Below, in pieces: positions 7,626-62,505 of a DNA stretch of 64,000 nucleotides. The position numbers and the translations under genes are program-made. How positions within the stretch are numbered: position 1 is the first letter of the stretch; each line of letters opens with the position of its first letter. Source of the stretch: an uncultured Gammaproteobacteria bacterium (GTDB taxonomy: Bacteria; Pseudomonadota; Gammaproteobacteria; Pseudomonadales; Pseudohongiellaceae); NCBI GenBank assembly GCA_913060975.1, contig CAJXVC010000004.1, positions 186,001-250,000 on the forward strand. Reading direction: 5' to 3'. The notes beneath the pieces are model-generated. The model had not been told where the DNA came from. It did not search any database and saw only the letters and a program-made list of their open reading frames with translations.

Positions 7626-8774
7626 CTAGCTGGCTTCCTTGATCATATTGCGAGCGATAATGATCTGCTGTATCTGGCTGGTGCCCTCATAGAGTCTGAA
7701 AAGCCGGACATCGCGGTAAAAGCGTTCAACTGCATATTCCGACATATAGCCAGCGCCACCATGAATCTGAACTGCACGGTCTGCAACACGGCCAACCATT
7801 TCGGTGGCGAACAATTTACTGGCCGATGACTCAGTGCTGACATTCTCGCCGTTGTCTCGCTTGCGTGCGGTTTCCATGACCATGCACTGCGCTGCGTAGG
7901 ATTCGGTTTTGGAATCTGCCAGCATTGCTTGAATCAATTGTTGTTCGGCAATTGGTTTGCCGAATTGCTTGCGTTGAATGGCGTAGTCCAATGAGTCGCG
8001 AATAAGCCGTTCGGCAACACCGCAACTGACCCCGGCAATATGCAGTCGGCCTCGGTCCAGGACCTTCATCGCGGTGATGAAACCGTCACCTTCCTTGCCG
8101 ATGATATTTTCTGCTGGGACTCGGCAATCTTCGAAAATGACATCGCAAGTCATGGAGCCCGACTGGCCCATCTTCTTATCGATCGTACCCAGCGTAATAC
8201 CAGGGGTATCTTTCTCAACAATAAACGAGGAGATGCCACGCGCACCTTTATTGTCGGGGTCGGTGCGGGCCATAACATTGAAGGTGTCAGCGACGTAGGC
8301 ATTGGTGATGTAGCGTTTCGTGCCGTTGATAACATAGTGGTCACCATCGCGCACCGCTGTGGTTTTCAGTGCGGCCGCATCAGAACCGGCGTCCGGTTCG
8401 GTCAGGCAAAAACAGCTGATGAATTCGCCGCTGGCATACTTGGGCAGGTATTTCTGTTTCTGTTCTTCGGTGCCGTCGAATACGATCGCGGCAGAGCCGA
8501 TACCGTTGTTGGTGCCCATGATTGAGCGAAACGCCGGAGAAGTCTTTCCCAGAGCCATAGCCACCAGGATTTCTTCTTCCATAGTCAAACCCAGACCACC
8601 ATATTCTTCTGGGATAGTCAGACCAAACAGGCCGAGCTCCTTCATCTCCTGAAGTAGGTCATTTGGTAGCTTGCCTTCCTCGGCCAGCTGGTTCTCTGCG
8701 GGTATCAACCGCTCCCGCACAAAGCGCTCAATCAGGTCGACGAGCTGGTTTATGGTCTCTTGATCTCTAATCAT
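7626..8774 (-). CDS. Acyl-CoA dehydrogenase, complete single-subunit type
   Basis: This 382-aa flavoprotein shows the classic acyl-CoA dehydrogenase layout: N-terminal helices with GLFGLTIPEEYGG, the FAD/substrate motif CFCLTEPDAGSDAA, the middle domain with GTKRYITNA, and the C-terminal IQIHGGAGYMSE followed by YEGTSQIQQIIIARNM. The Glu of YEGTSQIQ is the usual catalytic-base position, so unlike the paired subunits in this window it should work alone as a homotetramer. Short or branched acyl-CoA is the likely substrate class. It is divergent from the thiolase gene at 9006, with about 230 bases between them. Confidence 0.93.
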   Translation of the reverse strand: MIRDQETINQLVDLIERFVRERLIPAENQLAEEGKLPNDLLQEMKELGLFGLTIPEEYGGLGLTMEEEILVAMALGKTSPAFRSIMGTNNGIGSAAIVFDGTEEQKQKYLPKYASGEFISCFCLTEPDAGSDAAALKTTAVRDGDHYVINGTKRYITNAYVADTFNVMARTDPDNKGARGISSFIVEKDTPGITLGTIDKKMGQSGSMTCDVIFEDCRVPAENIIGKEGDGFITAMKVLDRGRLHIAGVSCGVAERLIRDSLDYAIQRKQFGKPIAEQQLIQAMLADSKTESYAAQCMVMETARKRDNGENVSTESSASKLFATEMVGRVADRAVQIHGGAGYMSEYAVERFYRDVRLFRLYEGTSQIQQIIIARNMIKEAS

Positions 8775-9005
8775 TTCAGTCCCCCCCGAAATTGAGCGGC
8801 TAAGCTATCACAAGCATTACCCTAAAGCGACTACAGGTGGCGTGGTTGCTGGGCTCGCCGACTATTCAGGCGCTGTGCTAGAATGTTTGATCTCGCCTGT
8901 ACCCCGCTACTACAGGCATATACACCAGCTTGTTTTCAAAGGATTTGAAAGCTCACTGGTTACTGAAAAAACAACGAACTCAGAGACCTGTCCGGGAACT
9001 ATACA

Positions 9006-32350: not shown

Positions 32351-33095
32351 CGCTGACCACCTCGCCAAGATAGGCTTCTTGCACGCGGCTGTTGCCACGA
32401 ATATTTTCCGGTACGTCGGTGGCAATGACTTCGCCGTAAACCAGCACTGAAATACGGTCGGCCAGATCAAAGACGATACTCATATCGTGTTCAACCATGA
32501 TTAGCGTTTTACCCGCCGTGATCTTGCGAATCAATGCGACGGCATTTTCTGCCTCGCTATGGCTCATGCCGGCCACGGGTTCATCCAGCATAATCAGTTC
32601 CGCGCCACTGGCGACTGCAATGCCGAGTTCGAGCGCACGTTGTTGGGCATAAGCCAATTCACCAGCAGGATAGAAGGCGCGCTTTTCAAGACCGATCTGT
32701 GCAATGACTTGCTCGGTCTTCTCATTGAGTCGTTTCTGTCGATCCAGCAACTGCCAGAAAGAATATTTGTAGCCTTCCGACCAGAGCAAGGCGCAACGAA
32801 TATTCTCGAATACATTGAGGCGAGGGAAGATGTTGGTGACTTGAAAAGAGCGTGCCAGACCCAGACGATTAATTTCATAGGGCTGCTTGTTTTGTATTTG
32901 CTGGCCCTTGAACGCTATGCTGCCTTCGCTTACGCCATAACGGCCACTGATCAAGTGAAATAGCGTCGATTTGCCGGCGCCATTGGGGCCGATGATGGCA
33001 TGCTTTTCGCCTTCTTCCACATCAAGATCAATGCCGCGAATAATGGGTGTAATACCGAAATTCTTGTGGACGTTACGGAGGCTGAGAATACTCAT
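32343..33095 (-). CDS. livG: Branched-chain amino acid-type ABC transporter ATPase (LivG)
   Basis: This 250-aa nucleotide-binding subunit powers the importer. It has a normal Walker A (GPNGAGKSTLFHLISG), the LivG-type signature region AYAQQRALELGIAVAS in place of LSGGQ, Walker B ELIMLDEPVAGMSHSE and the switch His in MVEHDMSIVF. Family context suggests amino acids or related amides as cargo. The start overlaps the end of livM by four bases (ATGA), so translation is coupled. Confidence 0.94.
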   Translation of the reverse strand: MSILSLRNVHKNFGITPIIRGIDLDVEEGEKHAIIGPNGAGKSTLFHLISGRYGVSEGSIAFKGQQIQNKQPYEINRLGLARSFQVTNIFPRLNVFENIRCALLWSEGYKYSFWQLLDRQKRLNEKTEQVIAQIGLEKRAFYPAGELAYAQQRALELGIAVASGAELIMLDEPVAGMSHSEAENAVALIRKITAGKTLIMVEHDMSIVFDLADRISVLVYGEVIATDVPENIRGNSRVQEAYLGEVVSDA

Positions 33096-34321
33096 GAGCT
33101 CTCTCCCTCTTCTTCGCTTATGGTATTAGCGGTATCCCAGGCATCGCGTAATTGTGGCAGCGTGCGCCGAGTGGCGTAGAAGGCCGCGGTAGCGAGAATC
33201 AGACCGATACTCCAGCTTATGGCGCTCTCCGGGTTCAGTGGCATGCCGAGGAAGTGTAGTGTTTCTTCGGCATGGCTCAGTTCAATAAGCGCCACTGTAG
33301 CCAGCACGAAAACTCCGGCGGGTAATGCAGTAATCAAATAAGGCTTGAACAATTGATTGAGCGTGCCCTGGGTCCAGGCCAATTGATGCATCATGATGAA
33401 CCCGGCAAAACCGCGCGGTAGAAACATCACAGTCAGGACGAACATCACGCCGACATATAACAACCATAGTTCAGTGTAGTTGCTCAGCAAGGTATTCATT
33501 AACGTGAGCACGACCGCACCGATGATCGGACCGATGAAGTAGCCCAGCCCACCAATGTAAGCCATCAGTAAAACACGGCCTGATGTGACTGCGTTGAGAT
33601 TCTCAGAGGTCAGAAATTCATAGTTCAGAGCAAACAAACCACCGGCAATGCCAGCGAAGAAGCCGGATGCACAAAATGAGATAAACCGCACCCAGCGCGC
33701 GCTATAGCCGATGAACTCGGCACGCTCCGGGTTATCGCGCACGGCATTGGCCAGTCGACCAGCTGGGGTTTTGGTGAACAAGTACATAAAGAGCGTGGCG
33801 ATAAATACCCAAACCGCGGCGATATAGTAGATTTCCGAATCCTGAAAGAATTCGATGCCAAAGAATGGCGGGCCGTAGGTGCGGTCGCCACTGATGCCGG
33901 CCTCACCACCGAAAAAGCTCTCCAGAATCAGTGAGGATGCCGCCACCAGTTCGGCAATGCCCAGCGAGATCATGGCAAAGACGGTGCCGGCTTTATGAGT
34001 CGAGAAGCTACCGATGAAAAGTGCGGCAATAAGTCCGCTCAGGCCGCCAATGAAAGGGATGTAGATGATCGAAAAATACATTTCTTCGTATTCGATTTTG
34101 ATCAGCGCGTGCACGGCAAGAAAGCCGCCGAGACCGTAGTACACCGCGTGACCAAAGGACAGCATGCCGCCTTGGCCGAGCAGCATGTTGTAGCTCAATG
34201 CAAAAACAATTGCGATGGCCAGCTGATTGAGCAGGGAAATACCCAGCACAGAGTCGAAGAGCTGGGGCAGTATCAGTAAGGCGATGCCGTAGCCGATCCA
34301 GGGTGTGAGTTTCTTTATCAT
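33092..34321 (-). CDS. livM: Branched-chain amino acid-type ABC transporter permease (LivM)
   Basis: This inner-membrane permease has about ten transmembrane segments over 409 residues. LGQGGMLSFGHAVYYGLGGF is the characteristic LivM motif, followed by GRLANAVRDNPERAEFIGY, the loop contacting the ATPases. The ATG at 34321 overlaps the livH stop as ATGA; a 34-residue upstream extension looks non-native. The extra C-terminal segment after AWTQGTLNQLF, with two hydrophobic stretches (about 315-385), is longer than in E. coli-type LivM proteins. Confidence 0.92.
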   Translation of the reverse strand: MIKKLTPWIGYGIALLILPQLFDSVLGISLLNQLAIAIVFALSYNMLLGQGGMLSFGHAVYYGLGGFLAVHALIKIEYEEMYFSIIYIPFIGGLSGLIAALFIGSFSTHKAGTVFAMISLGIAELVAASSLILESFFGGEAGISGDRTYGPPFFGIEFFQDSEIYYIAAVWVFIATLFMYLFTKTPAGRLANAVRDNPERAEFIGYSARWVRFISFCASGFFAGIAGGLFALNYEFLTSENLNAVTSGRVLLMAYIGGLGYFIGPIIGAVVLTLMNTLLSNYTELWLLYVGVMFVLTVMFLPRGFAGFIMMHQLAWTQGTLNQLFKPYLITALPAGVFVLATVALIELSHAEETLHFLGMPLNPESAISWSIGLILATAAFYATRRTLPQLRDAWDTANTISEEEGESS

Positions 34322-35268
34322 TGCTCGCGTTTGCCCATAAGACCGGTTGGCCGGAAAATCAGTACCAGAACCAGCAGTAGGAATGGCAGCACCGGAGCGA
34401 TTTGCGGTAGCGTGATTGTCCACAAATCATGCAATGGGTGACTGCGTTCAAACTCAACACCAAGCAGGTTTAACAGGTCCGGCATGCCAAGGTCTGAAGC
34501 AATCGCATAGGACTGCAGCAAGCCGATTAACAATGACGCAATAAAGGCTCCAGCCAGCGACCCTAGGCCACCTATAACAACAATCACAAAAACGATACTG
34601 CCCAGCACGGCGGCCATGCCCGGAAAAGTAGTCAGTACCGGCCCGGCAATCACGCCAGCCAGTCCGGCCAGAGCCGTACCAACACCAAACACACACATGA
34701 AAATCATCGGCACGTTATGGCCAAGATTGGCGACAGTGTTTGGGTGCGTGATGGCAGCCTGAATAATGATGCCGATACGACTGCGAGTCAGCACATAATA
34801 CAGACCCATAAAGATAGAGATGGAGATAGCGATCATGAAGCCGCGATAGGCTGAGAATTCCTGGCCGAATAGCGTGAACAGCGGAAAGTTCAGCAACTCG
34901 GGCGTCTGGTAGCCCTTGGTATCCGGCCCCCAGAAAAATTGCACGGCCTCTTCGATCAGGAAGGCCAGGCCAAAGGTAAAGACCAGTTCGGCCACGTGCC
35001 CGGATTGGTGCACCTTGCGTAACCCGTAGCGTTCAATCACGGCACCAAGCACGCCAACAATAAGTGGGGCGAAGATGAGACCGGTCCAATAGCCGAATTG
35101 CAAACTGATGGAATACGCGAAGTAGGCGCCAAGCATGTAGAAGCTGGCATGGGCAAAGTTGAGCACGCCCATCATGCTGAAGATCAAAGTGAGGCCGCTT
35201 GCCAGCATGAACAACAGCAAGCCTGTGACCAGACCATTAAGAGTGGCAAAAATAAAAACTTCAATCAT
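34318..35268 (-). CDS. livH: Branched-chain amino acid-type ABC transporter permease (LivH)
   Basis: LivH partner permease, 316 aa, about eight hydrophobic segments. LASGLTLIFSMMGVLNFAHA near the N-terminus is the LivH signature, and the GIIIQAAITHPNTVANLGHN loop matches the ATPase-coupling helix. The start lies about 40 bases after the binding-protein gene. It forms the transmembrane channel with LivM. Confidence 0.94.
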   Translation of the reverse strand: MIEVFIFATLNGLVTGLLLFMLASGLTLIFSMMGVLNFAHASFYMLGAYFAYSISLQFGYWTGLIFAPLIVGVLGAVIERYGLRKVHQSGHVAELVFTFGLAFLIEEAVQFFWGPDTKGYQTPELLNFPLFTLFGQEFSAYRGFMIAISISIFMGLYYVLTRSRIGIIIQAAITHPNTVANLGHNVPMIFMCVFGVGTALAGLAGVIAGPVLTTFPGMAAVLGSIVFVIVVIGGLGSLAGAFIASLLIGLLQSYAIASDLGMPDLLNLLGVEFERSHPLHDLWTITLPQIAPVLPFLLLVLVLIFRPTGLMGKREQ

Positions 35269-35309: not shown

Positions 35310-36569
35310 CTAGCGTCGTGGTCGTCGCATGCGGCAACTGGTTTCGACTATCGTATCTTCAGCCGCGACGTGGTACTCACTATACAGACCCAATCCGGAA
35401 TTGTCGGCATCGAATTCGATACCCTGGTCGGTATGTACTGAGATGTGCAGCGATTGGAAGGCTTGATGGTCGTCAGCTCGCATCCAGATTTCTTCGCCAC
35501 TGAAGTTGGTAAAACGCATGTCCTCCAACGCCAGAGCGATGTCGTAGGGATCTGCGCTCTGCGACTCTTCAATGGCTGCTACTACCATGCGCAAGGCATT
35601 GATGATGCGCGGCTGGGTAACATCACTATTTGGCGATTCGGCCTTATAGGCGCGAATGAATTCTTTGCGTTCCTCGGTTGGAATTGGATTGGAAATTTCG
35701 TTGTGTACCAAATAGATTTGGTCAATGCCGTCCTCACCCAGAGTTGCAGTGATGCCATCGTAGGCAGCATAGAAAGTATAGATTGGCATCTCCAAACCCG
35801 AATCCATAATCGAGCGTGCCAGAGACACCATGTCCGCACCAAAGTTACCGGTTAGTACCGCGTCTGCACCCGACGAGCCAATCTTTGTCACATAGGGCGT
35901 AAAGTCTTTGACCTGACCTATGGGATGGAATTCGTTTCCGACAATTTCGATGTCCGGGCGTTTTTTCGCCAGCAAATCGATGGTAGTTTCAGATACAACG
36001 TGTCCAAAGGAGTAGTCCTGCCCGATGATATAGAGCGATTCGATGTCGTCGTTCAAGGCGATATAGTCAGTCAACACATCCAGCTTCATGTTGACGTGGG
36101 CGTCGAATCGAAAATGCCAAAAGCTGCAATTCTCATTGGTTAGCACTGGGTCGACAGCAGAATAATTGATCTGCAGAATTTCCGCGCCGGGATTGCGGCG
36201 ATTGTGCCGGGTAATGGCATCGTTGAGGGTGTTAGCGACAGCCGAGCTGTTGCCTTGGAAAATGATGCGGATGTCTTCGCTTATTGCCCGGCGAAATTGC
36301 ACCTGCGTTTCAGTAGGGCTTTGCTGATTATCCAGTGGCACGATTTCGATTTCACGGCCACCCAGCACACCACCTTTTGAATTGAAGTAATACTCTGCAG
36401 CAAACTCCAGCTGTCGAAGACCATTGCTGCCGATTGATGCGAATGTGCCCGATAAAGGATCAATAAATGCGATGCGGATAGGTTCCTGGGCATTGGTATA
36501 AGAGGTGATGCTCAACAGTACTGTCAGCAATGTGTAATTCAGGGACATAGGGATTCTAAAAATTCGCAT
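35310..36569 (-). CDS. Periplasmic substrate-binding protein of the Liv-type importer
   Basis: This 419-aa protein has an N-terminal signal (LNYTLLTVLLSITSYTNAQ) and the type I periplasmic binding fold of LivK-like proteins: IRIAFIDPLSGTFASIGSNG at the start of lobe 1, ILQINYSAVDPVLTNENCSFWH for the hinge region, and YIIGQDYSFGHVVSE in lobe 2. Amino acids, short amides or urea are bound by such proteins; specificity cannot be judged. It is first in the operon, with its ATG eight codons before a second possible ATG at 36548. Confidence 0.9.
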   Translation of the reverse strand: MRIFRIPMSLNYTLLTVLLSITSYTNAQEPIRIAFIDPLSGTFASIGSNGLRQLEFAAEYYFNSKGGVLGGREIEIVPLDNQQSPTETQVQFRRAISEDIRIIFQGNSSAVANTLNDAITRHNRRNPGAEILQINYSAVDPVLTNENCSFWHFRFDAHVNMKLDVLTDYIALNDDIESLYIIGQDYSFGHVVSETTIDLLAKKRPDIEIVGNEFHPIGQVKDFTPYVTKIGSSGADAVLTGNFGADMVSLARSIMDSGLEMPIYTFYAAYDGITATLGEDGIDQIYLVHNEISNPIPTEERKEFIRAYKAESPNSDVTQPRIINALRMVVAAIEESQSADPYDIALALEDMRFTNFSGEEIWMRADDHQAFQSLHISVHTDQGIEFDADNSGLGLYSEYHVAAEDTIVETSCRMRRPRR

Positions 36570-37457: not shown

Positions 37458-38642
37458 TTAGTAAACCTCGAACAGCCCTGCTGCGCCCATACCACCGCCG
37501 ACACACATGGTGCAAACCACGTACTTGGCACCACGGCGTTTACCTTCGATCAGCGCATGACCAACCATGCGCGCACCGCTCATACCGTAAGGGTGGCCAA
37601 TGGAGATGGCGCCACCGTTGACGTTCAACAGTTCGTTGGGAATGCCAAGGTAATCGCGGCAGTAAAGCACTTGCACAGCAAATGCTTCATTGAGTTCCCA
37701 CAAACCGATATCGTCCATGTTAAGGCCAAAGCGCTCGAGCAATTTGGGGATGGCCTTGATAGGCCCGATGCCCATTTCGTCGGCATCAACGCCGGCGGCG
37801 GCCATGCCACGATAAGCGCCAAGCGGATTGAGGTTCTTTTGTTCGGCCAGCTTGCTGTCCATCAGGACCGACGCTGAAGCGCCATCAGAAAGCTGGCTGG
37901 CGTTGCCGGCAGTGATCACACCGTCTTCAAAGACAGGCTTGAGACCGACAAGCCCTTCCAGTGTCGTAGAGGGGCGGTTGCCTTCATCCTTTTCCAGAGT
38001 GACTTCGTGAATACTCTGTTCCTTGGTAGCCTTGTCGACAACAATCATCTTGCTGGGCAAGGGAACGATTTCATCGTTAAACAAGCCGGCTTCCTGCGCT
38101 GCCGCAGTGCGTTGCTGGCTTTGCAGTGCGTATTCATCCTGAGCATCGCGGGAAATATTGTAGCGCTTGGACACCACTTCGGCAGTTTCCAGCATGGATA
38201 TATAGGCATGTTGAGATTGGGCGATCACATTGGGGTCTTTGGCGCGATAGCCATTACGGTGTTCGTTCTGCACAAGGCTGATGGATTCCAGTCCGCCACC
38301 AATCACAATAGGCATGTTGTCACAGACAATCTGTTTGGCCGCAGTGGCAATGGCCATCATGCCTGAGGCACATTGGCGATCAATGCTCATGCCGGAGACC
38401 GAGCTCGGCAAACCGGCTGCCACGCCCGCAGTACGGCCAATATTGAAACCACTGCTGCCCTGCTGCATCGCGCAGCCCATGATCACGTCGTCCACTTCGG
38501 AGGGGTCAATAGCAGCGCGCTTGACCGCCTCGGCAATCACATGGCCGCCCAGAGTAGGGGCGTCAGTGTCATTAAATGCGCCCCGATAGGCTTTACCGAT
38601 AGGCGTTCGGGCGGTGGCTACTATTACTGCTTCTTTGGTCAT
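37458..38642 (-). CDS. Acetyl-CoA C-acyltransferase (thiolase)
   Basis: This 394-aa degradative thiolase shows [16 protein letters not shown] with the nucleophilic Cys near residue 90, [43 protein letters not shown] with the catalytic His, and [18 protein letters not shown] at the C-terminus. It should release acetyl-CoA from 3-oxoacyl-CoA. It is the second thiolase in the window and sits downstream of the selenoprotein gene (108-base gap). Whether it shares the transcript is uncertain. AGAGTAAA lies before the ATG. Confidence 0.94.
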
Positions 38643-38750: not shown

Positions 38751-39272
38751 TTACTCTTCCACAATCAGGCTGATAATATCCTTGATTGATTCTCGCGCCA
38801 GCGCGGCCATTTCCGCATCCGTTCGATCCTGAATAGGATGTGCTACAAACAGGCTTGCAGGATGAATGCCAAGCGAGCGGCCTTGAGCGGCAGCCGCCTG
38901 AATAAATTCGCTCGAAGCGATAAACCCGGATGGAAGTCCGCGGCTTTCCAGATCCATGATGTCATGCAAACTGCACGAGGTACATGAACCTCAGTCGGCC
39001 AAAGCTTCTATTACAGCATCGCATTCGGTGCTGATTTTCTGGTTTAGCTCAAGCGGTGCTATACGGGTAAATGTGGGCTTGTTATAGCGTTTCACCGCCG
39101 CGCCTTGATCGGTCAATTGCTGCTCGACTTCATCGAGGAATTCCTTGCCTCGTGGTTTTGAAATATCGAGTAGCCCGACTGTCGCGCCTGCCAAAGATTT
39201 AAGTCTTGGCAGCAATTGGCGCTCGGCCGGATTGACCTCAGCGGTGGGATCGAGAAGCAATATGCCTGACAT
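38751..39272 (-). CDS. UGSC-family selenoprotein (UGA read as selenocysteine)
   Basis: Two frames of 93 and 79 codons are joined in phase by a single TGA at 38991-38993; read as Sec the product is 173 aa. Sec94 falls in the sequence EALAD-U-GSCTSCSLHDIMDL, so the active-site string is U-G-S-C. UGSC-type proteins are known from marine metagenomes as a selenoprotein family without a proven reaction; Cys homologues have CGSC. A strong AAGGGGGAAG precedes the ATG. The hairpin at 38963-38977 is the likely SECIS. selC and selB are present elsewhere in the window. It follows the thioredoxin-domain gene by 32 bases, suggesting a redox pair. Confidence 0.85.
38963..38977 (-). promoter_or_regulatory. 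Probable bacterial SECIS element
   Basis: On the mRNA, CGUGCA and UGCAUG pair (five Watson-Crick pairs and one wobble) around the three-base loop GUU. The loop begins with G, 20 bases after the UGA. These features match what is known for bacterial SECIS hairpins: a small apical loop with an early G, about 16-37 bases downstream of the UGA, recognised by SelB. The element lies within the coding sequence. Confidence 0.65.
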
Positions 39273-39304: not shown

Positions 39305-40741
39305 TTATTGAATAAGTTCTGATACTAACTGACTACCGCGCTCACCGGAAGCGACCCAGCCGCTGATGATGGCGGAGAATTTTCCCGCGGTGCCGCCGGT
39401 TGTTACTATGTGCAAACCATCATCCCGAAACTTGTTGAGCTGCTTGTCTTTTAGTCGTTCCGGCATGCCTTCGGCCATACCATCAACACCTTCCAGTAAT
39501 TTGGCGCCAGGTATCATTAGTTCATCGAAAATAGCCTGTTTCAACTGCTTTTTTTCCCATCCAGCCTCGCGCAGCAGTTTTCGATGCTCAGGGCAGACCA
39601 GCAGGATGGCATCAGCCATGCCGAAGCGTTTGACATGTGCCACGCTGCGCAAGCTGCTGGCCATGCTCTTGGCCAAAGACTCCGGTGTGCGCGAGAGTTG
39701 ATCCATGATGGGTTGCAGGCCTTCACCTGCGAACAGACTAATTACTGATTCCTCACGGGAGTAACCGCGGTCCATAGCCAAAGTGGGCCAATCAGAATCT
39801 GTTTCATCCTCGGCGAAGCAATAGGTGTATTTGCCAGGGTTGCCCATGGTGGCGCGATCAATACCGCCAGGTATGCCGCCACCGATATTGCGAATCAATA
39901 ATTGCAGAGCACGCCCAATAGTAGCGTTGGCGCGATTACCCTGACCCAGTGCATTGATGCCCGAGTTCATACCAATGGCGCGGCACGCCGGGCCGCTGAC
40001 AATCATCACCGGTGCAGAAAAGTAGGTCGTGCAAAGCAGGCCATGCATACAGAACTTGTCTTGCAGAGCGGCCCGCACAGAAGCGAGTACGGCAGTGAAG
40101 TAATCCGGTTTGCAGCCTGCCATGACCGCGTTTATGGCTACTTTTTCGACAGTGCAAGGGTTGTTATCCGGTGGGATATAGCCAATTACATGCTGTGCAT
40201 CGAGCCGACTGGCGCGTAACATCTTCAATACTCGTAGCGGCGTCGGCGGCACAACTGGCAGACCGTCGGTCCAGCCGCGTTCGTAGCAGGCTTCCATCTC
40301 ATCTTCGGCGTCTGCAGTTGCTATCTCCCGTGCGCTCAGATTGGCCTTGCCAAAGCGCAGTAACAACTGCTCTTCCATACCGGGGTCTAAAGTCATGGAG
40401 CCACAGCCGGGCTTGAACGCTGGTAAGTCACTACCCAGATTGGCAATTTCTGTCAGCTCGATCCAGGCCTGTTGATCCCAACCATAGGTACGAGACATCT
40501 CGTCTCCTGCACCATTGTGTCGAATGAGAGTAGGCACGACTTCGATTTGATTCTGGAAGGAGGAGGCCAGCGAGGTATCGTCAATACGCTGCTCGGCAAC
40601 GCTCGGGAATGCCGGATCATCCTGCACAAACACCTGAACCTGACCGGGGTATTGTTGCTGCAACTGTTGCACAACAGGCTCTATAAGCGCGCAAGTCGGG
40701 CAAGCCTGCTTAACGAAGAGAGTGAACTGGGTTGTAGTCAA
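39305..40741 (-). CDS. Thioredoxin-like domain fused to UGSC-partner domain
   Basis: This 478-aa protein begins with a thioredoxin-like fold (about 5-80) bearing a CPTC redox motif at residues 14-17 and the cis-Pro in VVPTLIRHN. A linker with PGCGSMTLDPG leads into a large C-terminal domain (about 140-478: RGWTDGLPVVPPTP, GNRANATIGRALQLL, GGIPGGIDRATMG, VTTGGTAGKFSAI). This C-terminal domain accompanies UGSC selenoproteins in other genomes as I recall; no reaction is known. I prefer the TTG at 40741, eight bases after AGGGAG; the frame stays open to an ATG at 40879. It probably supplies electrons to, or works on the same substrate as, the selenoprotein. Confidence 0.8.
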   Translation of the reverse strand: MTTTQFTLFVKQACPTCALIEPVVQQLQQQYPGQVQVFVQDDPAFPSVAEQRIDDTSLASSFQNQIEVVPTLIRHNGAGDEMSRTYGWDQQAWIELTEIANLGSDLPAFKPGCGSMTLDPGMEEQLLLRFGKANLSAREIATADAEDEMEACYERGWTDGLPVVPPTPLRVLKMLRASRLDAQHVIGYIPPDNNPCTVEKVAINAVMAGCKPDYFTAVLASVRAALQDKFCMHGLLCTTYFSAPVMIVSGPACRAIGMNSGINALGQGNRANATIGRALQLLIRNIGGGIPGGIDRATMGNPGKYTYCFAEDETDSDWPTLAMDRGYSREESVISLFAGEGLQPIMDQLSRTPESLAKSMASSLRSVAHVKRFGMADAILLVCPEHRKLLREAGWEKKQLKQAIFDELMIPGAKLLEGVDGMAEGMPERLKDKQLNKFRDDGLHIVTTGGTAGKFSAIISGWVASGERGSQLVSELIQ

Positions 40742-40893: not shown

Positions 40894-41259
40894 CTAGTAG
40901 ATAAAGCCCAGAGTAGAGATGCCTACGAGGATGTTAATAATCATGAAAACAGATGAAGTACGTGACATCACTTTCCACATCTGCGGGCCCTTGTAAGCGG
41001 CTCGGACACCAACAACAAGAATGAACGTGTAGCCGAGCATGACTGCGACCATGGTTAAGTATTGTATCCAGTTTTCGTTGTCCACGGCGCGGCTGCCGAA
41101 AATAAAAAAAGCGCCAGCACCGGCGAAATACAATAGCCAATAAGTAGTTGCGAGCCCATAGTCACCAGCCACTAGCTTAGCCAGAAACGAGCGCCCATCG
41201 ATTGCATCAGGATTTGAAGAATGTGCCATGGTAATAACTGCTCGGGTTTTTAACAGCAT
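40894..41259 (-). CDS. Small membrane protein of unknown function
   Basis: The 121-aa product has three hydrophobic segments (about 38-56, 65-88, 98-118) and ends LVGISTLGFIY. I do not recognise the family. Two starts are possible: the ATG at 41259, after AAGGT, and an ATG ten codons later at 41229 with a weaker site. The next gene downstream, for the thioredoxin-fusion protein, begins about 150 bases on, so shared transcription is possible but unproven. Confidence 0.65.
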   Translation of the reverse strand: MLLKTRAVITMAHSSNPDAIDGRSFLAKLVAGDYGLATTYWLLYFAGAGAFFIFGSRAVDNENWIQYLTMVAVMLGYTFILVVGVRAAYKGPQMWKVMSRTSSVFMIINILVGISTLGFIY

Positions 41260-41606: not shown

Positions 41607-42494
41607 TTGGAAATCGGTAAACAGATTGACAGTCAGCCTCTCAGTCAGGCCTTTAGCTTTTCCAAAGAAAAGGAACGTGCGCTACATGGCTTGCGCGGTA
41701 TTCTGGCTGGCGTCGTCGCTGACAAAAAGCTCAATGAAAAAGAAATGCTGTTTCTCGACAGCTGGTTACAGTCGCAGCAATATCTGTCTGCGGATCGCGA
41801 CGTGCTGCGTATCCTGACCCAGGTCGGTGAAATCAAAGCACAAGGGCAAATCAGCCCGCAGTCGCTCCAGCAAATGCAGGCTACCCTTGAACACTTTATC
41901 TCTCTTGGCGACGAGGCTGCTGGTACTGGAGTCGGCGAGGTCGATGAATTAATGGGTTTTCTGACGGGCGTGGCATCTGATGGCGTGTTGAACGATCAGG
42001 AAATTGCTGCACTCTCCATATGGCTTGATAAACACAACGCGATTCGAGACACCTGGCCAGCCAGCGTCATCATTGAGCGCCTCGCTTTTATTCTGGAAGA
42101 TGGTGTAGTCACGGAAGAAGAGCGTGCCGATTTATTGAAATCCCTGCAACATATTACCTCTGCCAATTCCAGTACTGTGCGCTTTGATAGCGCTACAGAA
42201 ATATGGGAAGACAAGGTTGACCAGGTGAACCTGCCGGATTCGATATTCTGCCTGACGGGTGACTTTGTCTCCGGTGACCGCAATACAGTGGAATCAATGC
42301 TAAAATTGCGTGGGGCGTCGATTTCAACCAACGTCAATAAAACAGTCGATTTTCTGATTATTGGCACATTAGCGAGCCGTGACTGGCTTTACACCAGCCA
42401 TGGTCGCAAGATTGAAAAAGCTTTATTGCTCAAGCGAGATGGCTCAGAAATTTCCGTTATCACCGAGCGCACCTTACTACGTTTTCTACGTTAA
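41607..42494 (+). CDS. BRCT-domain protein with TerB-like helical N-terminus
   Basis: This is a 295-aa cytoplasmic protein. Residues about 25-190 are two helical repeats resembling TerB/tellurite-resistance-like modules (GILAGVVADKKLNEKEMLFL and GFLTGVASDGVLNDQEIAAL; both with acidic GV-DKLNE-type turns). Residues about 210-295 form a BRCT domain (FCLTGDFVSGDRNTVESML, GASISTNVNKTVDFLIIG, ERTLLRFLR), as at the C-terminus of NAD-dependent DNA ligase. The start is the TTG at 41607 with no clear binding site. Likely role: protein-protein contact in DNA metabolism; a precise job is unknown. Confidence 0.75.
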   Translation: MEIGKQIDSQPLSQAFSFSKEKERALHGLRGILAGVVADKKLNEKEMLFLDSWLQSQQYLSADRDVLRILTQVGEIKAQGQISPQSLQQMQATLEHFISLGDEAAGTGVGEVDELMGFLTGVASDGVLNDQEIAALSIWLDKHNAIRDTWPASVIIERLAFILEDGVVTEEERADLLKSLQHITSANSSTVRFDSATEIWEDKVDQVNLPDSIFCLTGDFVSGDRNTVESMLKLRGASISTNVNKTVDFLIIGTLASRDWLYTSHGRKIEKALLLKRDGSEISVITERTLLRFLR

Positions 42495-52294: not shown

Positions 52295-52390
52295 GGAAGA
52301 GTATCGCCCCCGGTGGGGTGCCCGGACTTCAAACCCGGTGAGGCCTGTTAACGACAGGCCTGGTGGGTTCGACTCCTGCCTCTTCCGCCA
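52295..52390 (+). tRNA. selC: tRNA-Sec (selenocysteine, anticodon TCA)
   Basis: This 96-base tRNA with encoded CCA closely matches the bacterial tRNA-Sec layout. The acceptor stem begins GGAAGAG and ends CTCTTCCGCCA; the anticodon loop CTTCAAA (52327-52333) has TCA, which reads UGA; the variable arm is long (GGCCTGTT-AACGACAGGCC region); the T loop is TTCGACT as in E. coli. The extra-long variable arm and long acceptor/T stack distinguish it from tRNA-Ser. One A-C mismatch lies in the anticodon stem. It supports true Sec insertion at the UGA in the selenoprotein gene 13 kb away. Confidence 0.97.
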
Positions 52391-55779: not shown

Positions 55780-56475
<696 letters not shown>

Positions 56476-60525: not shown

Positions 60526-62505
60526 CTAAGCGCCAAATATATTTTCTTTGTCTGTGCGTACAAAGCGGCTATTACCATCCCGGCGCGTAAAACCTATACG
60601 ATCAAAATACTCAAGTAGATCGATACATAAATTGCGGCCGATACCGGTGGCGTCACGAAATTCGATGACAGAAAACCCTTCATTCTCTTCAGCTTGTGCG
60701 GCGAGTGACTCGGTAAATTCAGCCAGTTCGATAATGGTTTGTGGCAAATAATGTCGATTGTGAGCCACGCGGACAAGATGGCCTGAAAGCGTCAGTTCTT
60801 TCATTGAAGATTCCAGCTTCTCCAGAGGAATGTTGGTCAATGCCACCAGTTCTCGCGTACGAGGAGCTACCCGACCGGCGGCAAGTAAATGCGGTTCCAG
60901 CTCCTGGAAAAATTTCTCCTGCAGAATGCCGAGAGCGACCTGATGTTGTGGTAAATGCAGACTCGTTCCAGTGCGGATGATATCGGCATGTTTAAGCAGG
61001 TATTCGATGATGTACTGCAGAAAACCATGGGAGCCTTTGTAGGCAATGGTTCCGGCCAGTGACATGGTTGACATGCCCTGCTGTTCCGGGTGTGCGCTGT
61101 GATGCGTAGCGAGCGTATCGAGAATTTGCGTGCGCAATGCATCTAGATAGCCTCTCTGCAACGCCAGTTGATTATTGCCGGATTTGAGTAAGATTATGTC
61201 TGAAGTCTCCGGCGCCATGAGTTCGTCCAGACATTCTTGGACGGCGGAGTCAGTCAGATTGCGATTGGCCGCGAACAATTGCAGGTCGACGCCGGAAGAG
61301 GCCAGTGCTATCAGTTGGCCGAGGGCTTGCTCGGTGTCATTATCCTGCGCGCGCAGCCATTGCCGGCGCTGTTCAGAATCTCGGCCGCGCCGAGGAACTC
61401 GATTGTCCAGAACCAGACCGCCACCGAGCGTTTTACTCGCCGAAGGATCGCGAATAACAAAGCGGTCACCGTGATGCACCGTTAGTGGTTCGCCGCAATA
61501 AAGCTGATAAAGCGCTGGTGGCGTCGTATCGAGACAGCGAAGAATCGCAGTGCAATGTGTCGCTCCGATGTGCAAATGGTATTGTGCTGTTGATTTGATC
61601 GCATGCTCTTCCAGCCAGTGAATTTTGCTATCGAAGCGGCGTGTAGGCACAATCGCCGGACCTGCTGTTAGATAGTCACCACGCCATACAGTGCGCGACG
61701 GTAAAGTGATATTGAGCGCCGCGCGTTGCGAACGCCCCACCGATTGAATGTCGACCTCATGCAGACGCATGTTTTTGATGCGCAGCTTTTCGCCAGAGCG
61801 TGTGTGTCGCAGTTCTAATGTCGCTTCCAGATTGCCATCAATCATCGTCCCGGTCACGATAGTGCCGAGTCCTTTGGTGGAAAAACTTCGGTCTACCAAA
61901 AAACGCGGGTGTTTTTGTAAATCTTCGGCGCTGTTATTGCTATCGCTTTGTGTCAGAGCAAGCAGGGCGGTTTCTACATCGCCTATGCCACTACCGTTGA
62001 TGTTGGAAACAGCAATGATGTCAGCACTATCCAGAAAGCTTCCCTTGCATAGCGCAGTAATTGACGAGCGCACTTCGGCAACGCGCTCGGCGCTGCAGCG
62101 ATCGATCTTGGTCAGGACGACGAGGCCCGTTTCAATTCCCATTAGCTGCAAGATGGCGAGATGTTCCCGAGTCTGCGGCATAATGCCGTCATCAGCAGCA
62201 ATGACCAGCATGGCATAACGTACGGAACCAACACCAGAAACCATATTGGCAATAAAGTCCGCATGGCCGGGTACATCGACAAAGCCAAGTGTCATTGCCT
62301 CATCGGCAACAACATGTTGGGCATAGGCAAAGCCGGGATTGATGCTTAGTCCGCGCGCCTTTTCTTCGGCGAGTGTGTCGGTATCTTTGCCAGTGAGCTG
62401 TCTGACCAATGAGGTTTTGCCATGATCGACATGGCCAGCTGTGGCGATGATGGCCGCTTGTTGCGAGGGCAGCGGCTGTTCGTAGAGCGCGGGTTTCATG
62501 GGCAT
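60526..62505 (-). CDS. selB: Selenocysteine-specific elongation factor SelB
   Basis: SelB delivers Sec-tRNA to the ribosome at UGA codons bearing a SECIS. The 659-aa protein has the GTPase domain (TAGHVDHGKTSLV at about 22-34, DVPGHADFI, VLTKIDRC), two beta barrels, and four winged-helix repeats at the C-terminus ending FSVIEFRDATGIGRNLC, which bind the SECIS hairpin. Two starts, 62505 and 62499, are possible. It agrees with selC and the UGA-containing gene in this window. selA and selD are not seen here. Confidence 0.96.
   Translation of the reverse strand: MPMKPALYEQPLPSQQAAIIATAGHVDHGKTSLVRQLTGKDTDTLAEEKARGLSINPGFAYAQHVVADEAMTLGFVDVPGHADFIANMVSGVGSVRYAMLVIAADDGIMPQTREHLAILQLMGIETGLVVLTKIDRCSAERVAEVRSSITALCKGSFLDSADIIAVSNINGSGIGDVETALLALTQSDSNNSAEDLQKHPRFLVDRSFSTKGLGTIVTGTMIDGNLEATLELRHTRSGEKLRIKNMRLHEVDIQSVGRSQRAALNITLPSRTVWRGDYLTAGPAIVPTRRFDSKIHWLEEHAIKSTAQYHLHIGATHCTAILRCLDTTPPALYQLYCGEPLTVHHGDRFVIRDPSASKTLGGGLVLDNRVPRRGRDSEQRRQWLRAQDNDTEQALGQLIALASSGVDLQLFAANRNLTDSAVQECLDELMAPETSDIILLKSGNNQLALQRGYLDALRTQILDTLATHHSAHPEQQGMSTMSLAGTIAYKGSHGFLQYIIEYLLKHADIIRTGTSLHLPQHQVALGILQEKFFQELEPHLLAAGRVAPRTRELVALTNIPLEKLESSMKELTLSGHLVRVAHNRHYLPQTIIELAEFTESLAAQAEENEGFSVIEFRDATGIGRNLCIDLLEYFDRIGFTRRDGNSRFVRTDKENIFGA

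Follow-up and report, generated by a model that had tools for sequence, protein, structure and literature searches.

The 64,000-nucleotide stretch of contig CAJXVC010000004.1 analyzed here (the window), from an uncultured gammaproteobacterium of the Pseudohongiellaceae, carries on its minus strand a gene of the UGSC family (positions 38751 to 39272) beside a second gene, at 39305 to 40741 on the same strand, to which we gave the name GW. Read from 39272 down to 38751, the UGSC gene consists of 93 codons, a TGA (38993 to 38991), another 79 codons and a stop, that is, 173 residues with selenocysteine (Sec) at residue 94 (U94) of the product, within the string D-U-G-S-C-T-S-C. The bases just 5' of its ATG are AAGGGGGAAGATC. 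An earlier note on this DNA had described these two same-phase frames, their junction at the TGA and the U-G-S-C-T-S-C string, all of which we recovered at the coordinates it gave; it had left out the strand, which is the minus one. A plus-strand reading of the same positions was rejected, as there are more stops on that strand. GW encodes an N-terminal thioredoxin (Trx)-like domain followed by an unnamed core. Its start codon is uncertain, the frame being open to 40879 and the TTG at 40741 being our choice.

Sequence comparison makes it very probable that the UGSC product contains selenium and belongs to a known family. It scored 137.9 bits against NF041046 of NCBIfam (cut-off, 125; profile positions 2 to 145 of 147) and 137.8 bits against PF24696, the Pfam model of UGSC (cut-off, 25; positions 2 to 170 of 172), and the family assignment proposed in the earlier note therefore stands. 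Passing these cut-offs, the U/C-G-S-C motif and the existence of both Sec and cysteine (Cys) members are features that the window gene shares with the family as defined by NF041046, PF24696 and the UGSC-containing selenoprotein of the Global Ocean Sampling (GOS) survey. When the halves were compared separately, the 5' half matched positions 2 to 92 of PF24696 (62.9 bits) and the 3' half positions 94 to 170 (54.1 bits), consecutive parts of the profile, which is the pattern given by one gene with a sense UGA inside. When the window was scanned for UGA codons flanked on either side by 45 codons or more, 69 candidates emerged, among which the family-library comparison covered the UGSC gene alone. 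Among the 20 of them listed, two had no overlap with a long ordinary frame (at least 180 codons): the UGSC gene and a candidate at 56115 to 56465 (minus strand), which lies antisense to a frame of 106 amino acids, ferredoxin-like by eye.

To collect relatives, contigs in the GTDB were scanned, and the 292 candidate stretches found yielded 186 relatives, of which the best 80 were retained. The sequence D-TGA-GSCTSC was present in each of them and in the locus of the window itself, placing UGA at the aligned position of the [U/C]GSC motif in 81 of 81 loci. These 80 relatives matched over the full length or the greater part of it, none ending at the UGA, in agreement with the earlier claim that the two halves make sense only together. 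Downstream of the UGA, none of the 80 relatives has a stop in this frame within 70 codons; the other two frames stay open that far in 12 and in none. In both halves the nonsynonymous divergence (dN) was well under the synonymous one (dS). Over the 30 codons preceding the UGA, the medians were 0.188 for dN and 1.623 for dS (32 of 79 pairs being usable), and over the 60 codons following it they were 0.118 and 1.964 (61 of 79).

Natural homologues with Cys instead of Sec also exist. Examples are L085 (DCGSCTSC, 46% identity, E value of 5e-48), L096 and L093, and Cys occupies the site in 11 of 13 plasmid loci (of the 15 plasmid loci found, 13 were fetched and H7 and H8 were left out). The earlier note had expected Cys or Sec to align at residue 94, and the alignment does place there the Sec of the 80 retained relatives and the Cys of these homologues. 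On a tree of 55 UGSC proteins (41 with Sec and 14 with Cys), seven changes between the Sec and Cys labels are needed, two of which are forced by well-supported branches. In one genome (L084, L087 and L119) the gene has Cys at the site, a later TGA and, in a different frame, a further piece, and looks decayed.

A bacterial hairpin resembling a Sec insertion sequence begins at the UGA (38948 to 38993, minus strand), with its apical stem at 38962 to 38978 (TCGTGCA-GTT-TGCATGA) and a minimum free energy of -18.4 kcal/mol in 60 nucleotides. Statistics were restricted to distinct 48-base windows, 82 starting at UGA and 4 at Cys codons. The 82 UGA windows averaged -17.4 kcal/mol, compared with -11.8 kcal/mol elsewhere in the same genes; as a weak control, the hairpin was the strongest fold of its gene in just 31 of 82. 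Among the apical stem cells of the UGA windows, 559 of 574 were paired, dropping to between 11 and 328 when the stem was shifted by one to three bases, and the stem was relaxed in the four Cys windows (19 of 28 cells paired; one of the four comes from a copy that looks decayed). In the UGA genes that have serine (Ser) at residue 99, its codon is TCG in 77 of 77, and in those with Ser at residue 101 the codon is AGT in 73 of 73, AGT accounting for 13% of the Ser codons elsewhere in these genes, while Cys genes use TCA, TCC or TCG. An adverse control was the shuffling of synonymous codons, which did not discriminate (559 paired cells observed, a shuffle mean of 558.0 and 15 of 1,000 shuffles reaching 559) because the stem is nearly invariant. 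The argument for a directly downstream hairpin under selection is thus drawn from codon choice against the background and from its loss in the four Cys windows.

The machinery for Sec insertion is complete in the genome. As the earlier note had pointed out, two of its genes lie in the window: selC, the tRNA-Sec gene (52295 to 52386, plus strand; Rfam RF01852 with 69.5 bits, and ARAGORN), and the gene of the Sec-specific elongation factor SelB (60526 to 62505, minus strand), with GTP_EFTU, Beta-barrel_SelB and SelB-wing domains. The genes selA and selD are located on the same contig, outside the window. The conserved frame, the hairpin, the Cys homologues and this full machinery together indicate that the UGA is decoded. 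The interruption itself, and the presence of a TTG start at 38969 in the second half, would also fit an ordinary stop, either in a gene that has decayed or between two small proteins made separately, yet we consider this extremely improbable, since the UGA and the frame are kept in 80 of 80 relatives, the hairpin is conserved at the codon level, Cys homologues exist and the two halves form one compact domain in the predicted structure.

GW is found next to UGSC wherever we looked at both. It adjoins UGSC in all of the 80 retained relatives and, in the larger collection, at each of the 136 loci, which include re-fetched copies and represent 123 distinct UGSC segments. The two genes invariably share a strand, the gap between their domains is 400 nucleotides or less, and GW lies upstream of UGSC at 130 loci and downstream at 6. 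The same holds for the 13 plasmid loci, which come from haloarchaea, actinobacteria, and alpha- and betaproteobacteria. In one draw of 398 genomes of the phylum, UGSC and GW appeared in five genomes each (with at most five GW candidates scored per genome), and these were the same five, one being the genome of the window. In Acidovorax sp. T1 (L154), UGSC and GW share one open frame, the sole internal stop of which is the Sec UGA. These patterns support UGSC and GW as a constant gene pair. A script also flagged L161 as a fusion, which was not counted, its annotation giving two separate genes. In four of the seven haloarchaeal loci (plasmids L161 to L164), GW genes flank a Cys-type UGSC on both sides, an arrangement that suggests two different GW subunits.

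In the lineage of the window, GW begins with the Trx-like domain, in which a CPTC, CETC, CATC or CSTC motif was present in 74 of 79 GW rows (L002 to L081); the CPTC of the window lies at 40691 to 40702 (minus strand). C-terminal Cys tails such as ACVDCE or CVDGACA were detected by pattern in 33 of 152 GW rows. Around the pair, an Arthrobacter plasmid has the gene order trxB-trxA-GW-UGSC, a Roseovarius plasmid has GW-UGSC-trxB, a Variovorax plasmid carries trxB three genes 5' of GW, and L120, L163 and L164 have trxB-like genes (45 to 58% identity) within about 4 kb. A Trx-type function thus appears to travel often with GW, as a fused domain, as a Cys tail or, in few loci, as a nearby trxB or trxA. 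Outside the Trx part, the GW core gave no Pfam or NCBIfam match at an E value of 1 or better other than scattered chance-level hits. The AlphaFold2 model of GW (mean predicted local distance difference test [pLDDT] score of 88.9) gave in Foldseek a good match for the Trx domain alone, and the core contains two invariant Cys, C210 and C308 in the numbering of the 478-residue protein.

The comparison of UGSC with the Sec domains of D-proline reductase (PrdB) and of protein B of glycine reductase (GrdB) used alignments of 42 of 48 non-redundant UGSC proteins (L038, L008, L014, L005, L052 and L035 left out) and of 11 of 12 PrdB-like proteins (L145, which ran on, left out). Among the 42 UGSC members, 24 matched TIGR01917 (GrdB), 18 GrdF, 8 TIGR01918 and 7 GrdH, all weak matches over the Sec region with a best E value of 3e-4, and one of the three full PrdB-like proteins scanned matched the UGSC family model (E value of 0.013). 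With hhalign, the UGSC and PrdB-like profiles aligned Sec on Sec with probabilities of 78.5 and 84.5% (E values of 1.7e-5 and 6.9e-6 for a single template). The score of 39.6 is higher than the maximum reached over 200 column shuffles (19.1), than that of the reversed profile (15.7) and than the best of 69 control clusters (29.6), the latter a weak control made of neighboring open frames, some of them shadow frames rather than real proteins. By these profile matches and single-template alignments, UGSC contains a remotely homologous Sec domain with a UxxC motif, which supports its being a remote relative of the PrdB/GrdB Sec domain. It is a relative rather than a member because UGSC proteins fall hundreds of bits under the curated cut-offs of GrdB, GrdF and GrdH, TIGR04483 not being among the families listed for UGSC, and because the neighboring gene is GW, without a match to the pyruvoyl-forming partners GrdE and PrdA.

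A search of the window's own genome with PF07355 gave nothing. This model ends at about the Sec, so that Pfam can miss the half that follows, which may explain why UGSC has no PF07355 match. In the order to which genome G139 belongs, short PrdB-like proteins recognized by PF07355 (L137 to L148) are also interrupted by an in-frame UGA (e.g., ...VDAALLVPV-UGA-PxC), and compared with PrdB-like proteins UGSC is one residue longer between the DA strand and the Sec.

The fold of UGSC is predicted to be Rossmann-like and not Trx-like. The AlphaFold2 model built from 42 sequences (pLDDT of 92.9) is one compact domain of alternating strands (E) and helices (H), E31-36, H42-55, E59-64, H74-83, E86-92, H95-110, E115-120, H121-134, E139-143 and H152-167, with U94 between the strand at 86 to 92 and the helix at 95 to 110; a Trx fold was rejected on the basis of these strand-helix repeats. 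Foldseek gave weak matches only, the best to lumazine synthase, with no Trx among the 50 listed of 1,856. Sequence searches of solved structures with the UGSC, PrdB-like and GW profiles gave a best E value of 0.077 in one and none in the other two. A Trx-like fold has been proposed for UGSC in the selenoproteome literature, in the available text of PMC2398784 among others, and the suggestion from there is a generic Trx-fold-like thiol or selenol oxidoreductase, a peroxidase or disulfide reductase active in oxidative-stress defense. The UxxC motif and the Trx domain of the partner would suit such an enzyme, three haloarchaeal UGSC copies have genes for universal stress proteins nearby (the one hint of this kind seen), and a reference title reports peroxidase activity for GrdB itself. 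The high-confidence Rossmann-like model and a profile similarity that points to GrdB/PrdB argue against it, as do, for stress defense, the named neighbors of UGSC, which are mostly catabolic, transport or regulatory genes, and we regard this explanation as unlikely.

We propose instead that UGSC, a genuine selenoprotein, carries the selenol in a Trx-fed, PrdB/GrdB-like reductase built from two subunits, the other of which would be GW. From the computational evidence, we give this reading a probability of roughly 0.58. In the available text of the literature on D-proline reductase, the substrate sits on PrdA and is attacked by the PrdB selenolate, a PrdB Cys frees the mixed Se-S bond and the enzyme is restored by an electron donor, while the electron chain of glycine reductase passes through Trx reductase and Trx (PMC3091704; PMC10298544). 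The selenol of UGSC with its UxxC motif, GW and the attached Trx would fit this cycle. By analogy, GW would bind the substrate, the selenolate of U94 would attack it and displace a C-N, C-O or C-halogen bond, a Cys of the UxxC motif would resolve the Se intermediate, leaving a selenenyl sulfide, and the Trx domain of GW (or Trx and TrxB) would reduce the latter for the next cycle, as published for the glycine and D-proline reductases.

Several results weigh against the proposed reductase. On the side of GW, 54 of 152 rows had neither a Trx motif nor a tail by the same patterns, which miss many; trxB-like genes (at least 44% identity) were found in just 6 of the 104 loci searched (those of at least 10 kb, re-fetched ones included), three of the six having supplied the queries; and no pyruvoyl-subunit family was matched. 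Foldseek found no convincing template for the GW core, the best being class I fumarase with a template modeling score of 0.25. The fused Acidovorax copy diverges at the C terminus of GW and continues into other sequence, and so may not be intact. On the side of UGSC, 18 of the 42 members had no TIGR01917 match, and the window's protein scored 13.8 bits against a cut-off of 602.2 for that family, no UGSC protein coming near the GrdB/PrdB cut-offs. A first hhalign run with smaller alignments had given a probability of 5.7% (E value of 0.0066), the later one used 17 of 31 PrdB-like segments selected by motif pattern, and the best control cluster reached a probability of 29.4%. Finally, PF09338 (GrdE type) was found in 0 of 41 genomes, in a search that had no positive control.

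Compared with D-proline reductase, the UGSC-GW pair would share a UxxC selenol on a remotely homologous domain, with Sec aligned with Sec, and the two-subunit logic and Se-S recycling of the scheme as given in the available text; one difference is that GW occupies the place of PrdA beside UGSC. Its likeness to the protein B of glycine, sarcosine and betaine reductases (GrdB, GrdF or GrdH with GrdE) extends to the electron supply, as trxA and trxB near some UGSC genes suggest feeding like that described for glycine reductase. No GrdA, GrdC or GrdE appeared by name among the plasmid annotation entries listed around UGSC. A GrdB-type action on another leaving group has been proposed, in the available account, for the GrdB-like monofluoroacetate operon of Cloacibacillus, which is anaerobic, unlike the setting of UGSC, and whose operon also has antiporter and radical-SAM genes.

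The pair of the window lies in a run of minus-strand genes. Upstream (5') of GW, a small protein, membrane-like by eye and without a Pfam match (40894 to 41259), is shared by 61 of the 80 relatives. Directly 3' of UGSC is a thiolase of the acetyl-CoA C-acyltransferase type (37458 to 38642; 64 of 80), followed by a periplasmic binding protein of the LivK type (35310 to 36569; 40 of 80) and two branched-chain-type ATP-binding cassette permeases (33092 to 35268), LivH at 34318 to 35268 (39 of 80) and LivM at 33092 to 34423 (38 of 80). On the plus strand, a protein with a C-terminal BRCT domain (41607 to 42494) is near the module in 21 of the 80. At other loci, the plasmid annotations name CoA transferases, TRAP/TAXI or tricarboxylate binding proteins and acyl-CoA enzymes. 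These catabolic neighbors suggest a small organic or amino acid as the substrate. We advance tentatively, at somewhat less than even odds, the broader proposal that UGSC-GW proteins are widespread Trx-driven selenol/thiol reductases of marine and soil bacteria and haloarchaea, a counterpart of the glycine and D-proline reductases beyond the anaerobes that ferment amino acids. GW, unrelated to the pyruvoyl subunits, would be their new substrate-binding subunit, and small organic acids would be cleaved at a C-N or C-heteroatom bond.

Isocitrate lyase/phosphoenolpyruvate mutase and CoA-ester lyase families are also found among the neighbors. Together with the Cys forms in many lineages, haloarchaea included, and the two invariant Cys of the GW core with its weak structural echo of class I fumarase, they would agree with a non-reductive enzyme (a lyase, transferase or hydrolase) in which Sec or Cys acts as a covalent nucleophile and the Trx parts just keep it reduced. 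Two indirect points stand against this: Sec is kept, with few changes to Cys on the tree, and Trx domains fused to GW better fit a reduction linked to turnover. We think that such an enzyme is not likely here and prefer the Trx-fed reductase.

Other aspects of the distribution were seen along the way. In a second gammaproteobacterial group (L067 to L081), the other neighbor genes of the window were not found beside GW-UGSC in the 15 loci, and in many of them the pair sits, by eye, between kdsB-like and murB-like genes. In the order of G139, UGSC matches occurred in 75 of 76 genomes, with 1 to 6 per genome (67 genomes having 3 to 5), and every UGSC match among those listed had one TGA. Sec-type UGSC genes on plasmids were those of Acidovorax sp. 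T1 (L154, plasmid p2-T1) and Paracoccus versutus (L159, pTAV4), the former with IS1071-like and IS91-like transposase genes upstream. The annotated coding sequence of p2-T1 (8640 to 8930) stops at the UGA, its codon 97. The concern in the earlier note that standard gene calling hides such genes applies to this copy, but databases already use the name "UGSC family (seleno)protein."

In the GOS survey, as far as its available text goes, UGSC ranked with the most abundant families of selenoproteins in the ocean (255 genes in 37 samples), with no reaction given and with a fusion to "Unknown_1" (PMC2398784). The latter may be GW. The available open-access text on UGSC (PMC2398784, PMC13188914, and PMC9312934) agrees with the earlier statement that the family has no proven reaction, and mentions neither a link to GrdB/PrdB nor a partner other than "Unknown_1." A term search of the Sargasso Sea paper PMC1088965 found no mention of "UGSC." The gene described here does not differ from the family as published; the accessible UGSC literature is silent on the constant GW neighbor, on a Rossmann-like model and on kinship with PrdB/GrdB.

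Our analysis would shift UGSC from a Trx-like protein toward the PrdB/GrdB kind with a constant partner, giving a concrete complex to a family without a given reaction. Work on D-proline reductase concerns anaerobic fermenters, which the UGSC taxa considered here are not; bacteria with UGSC inhabit oxic waters. If the proposed reductase is true, the selenol chemistry of anaerobes would also run in bacteria of oxic waters.
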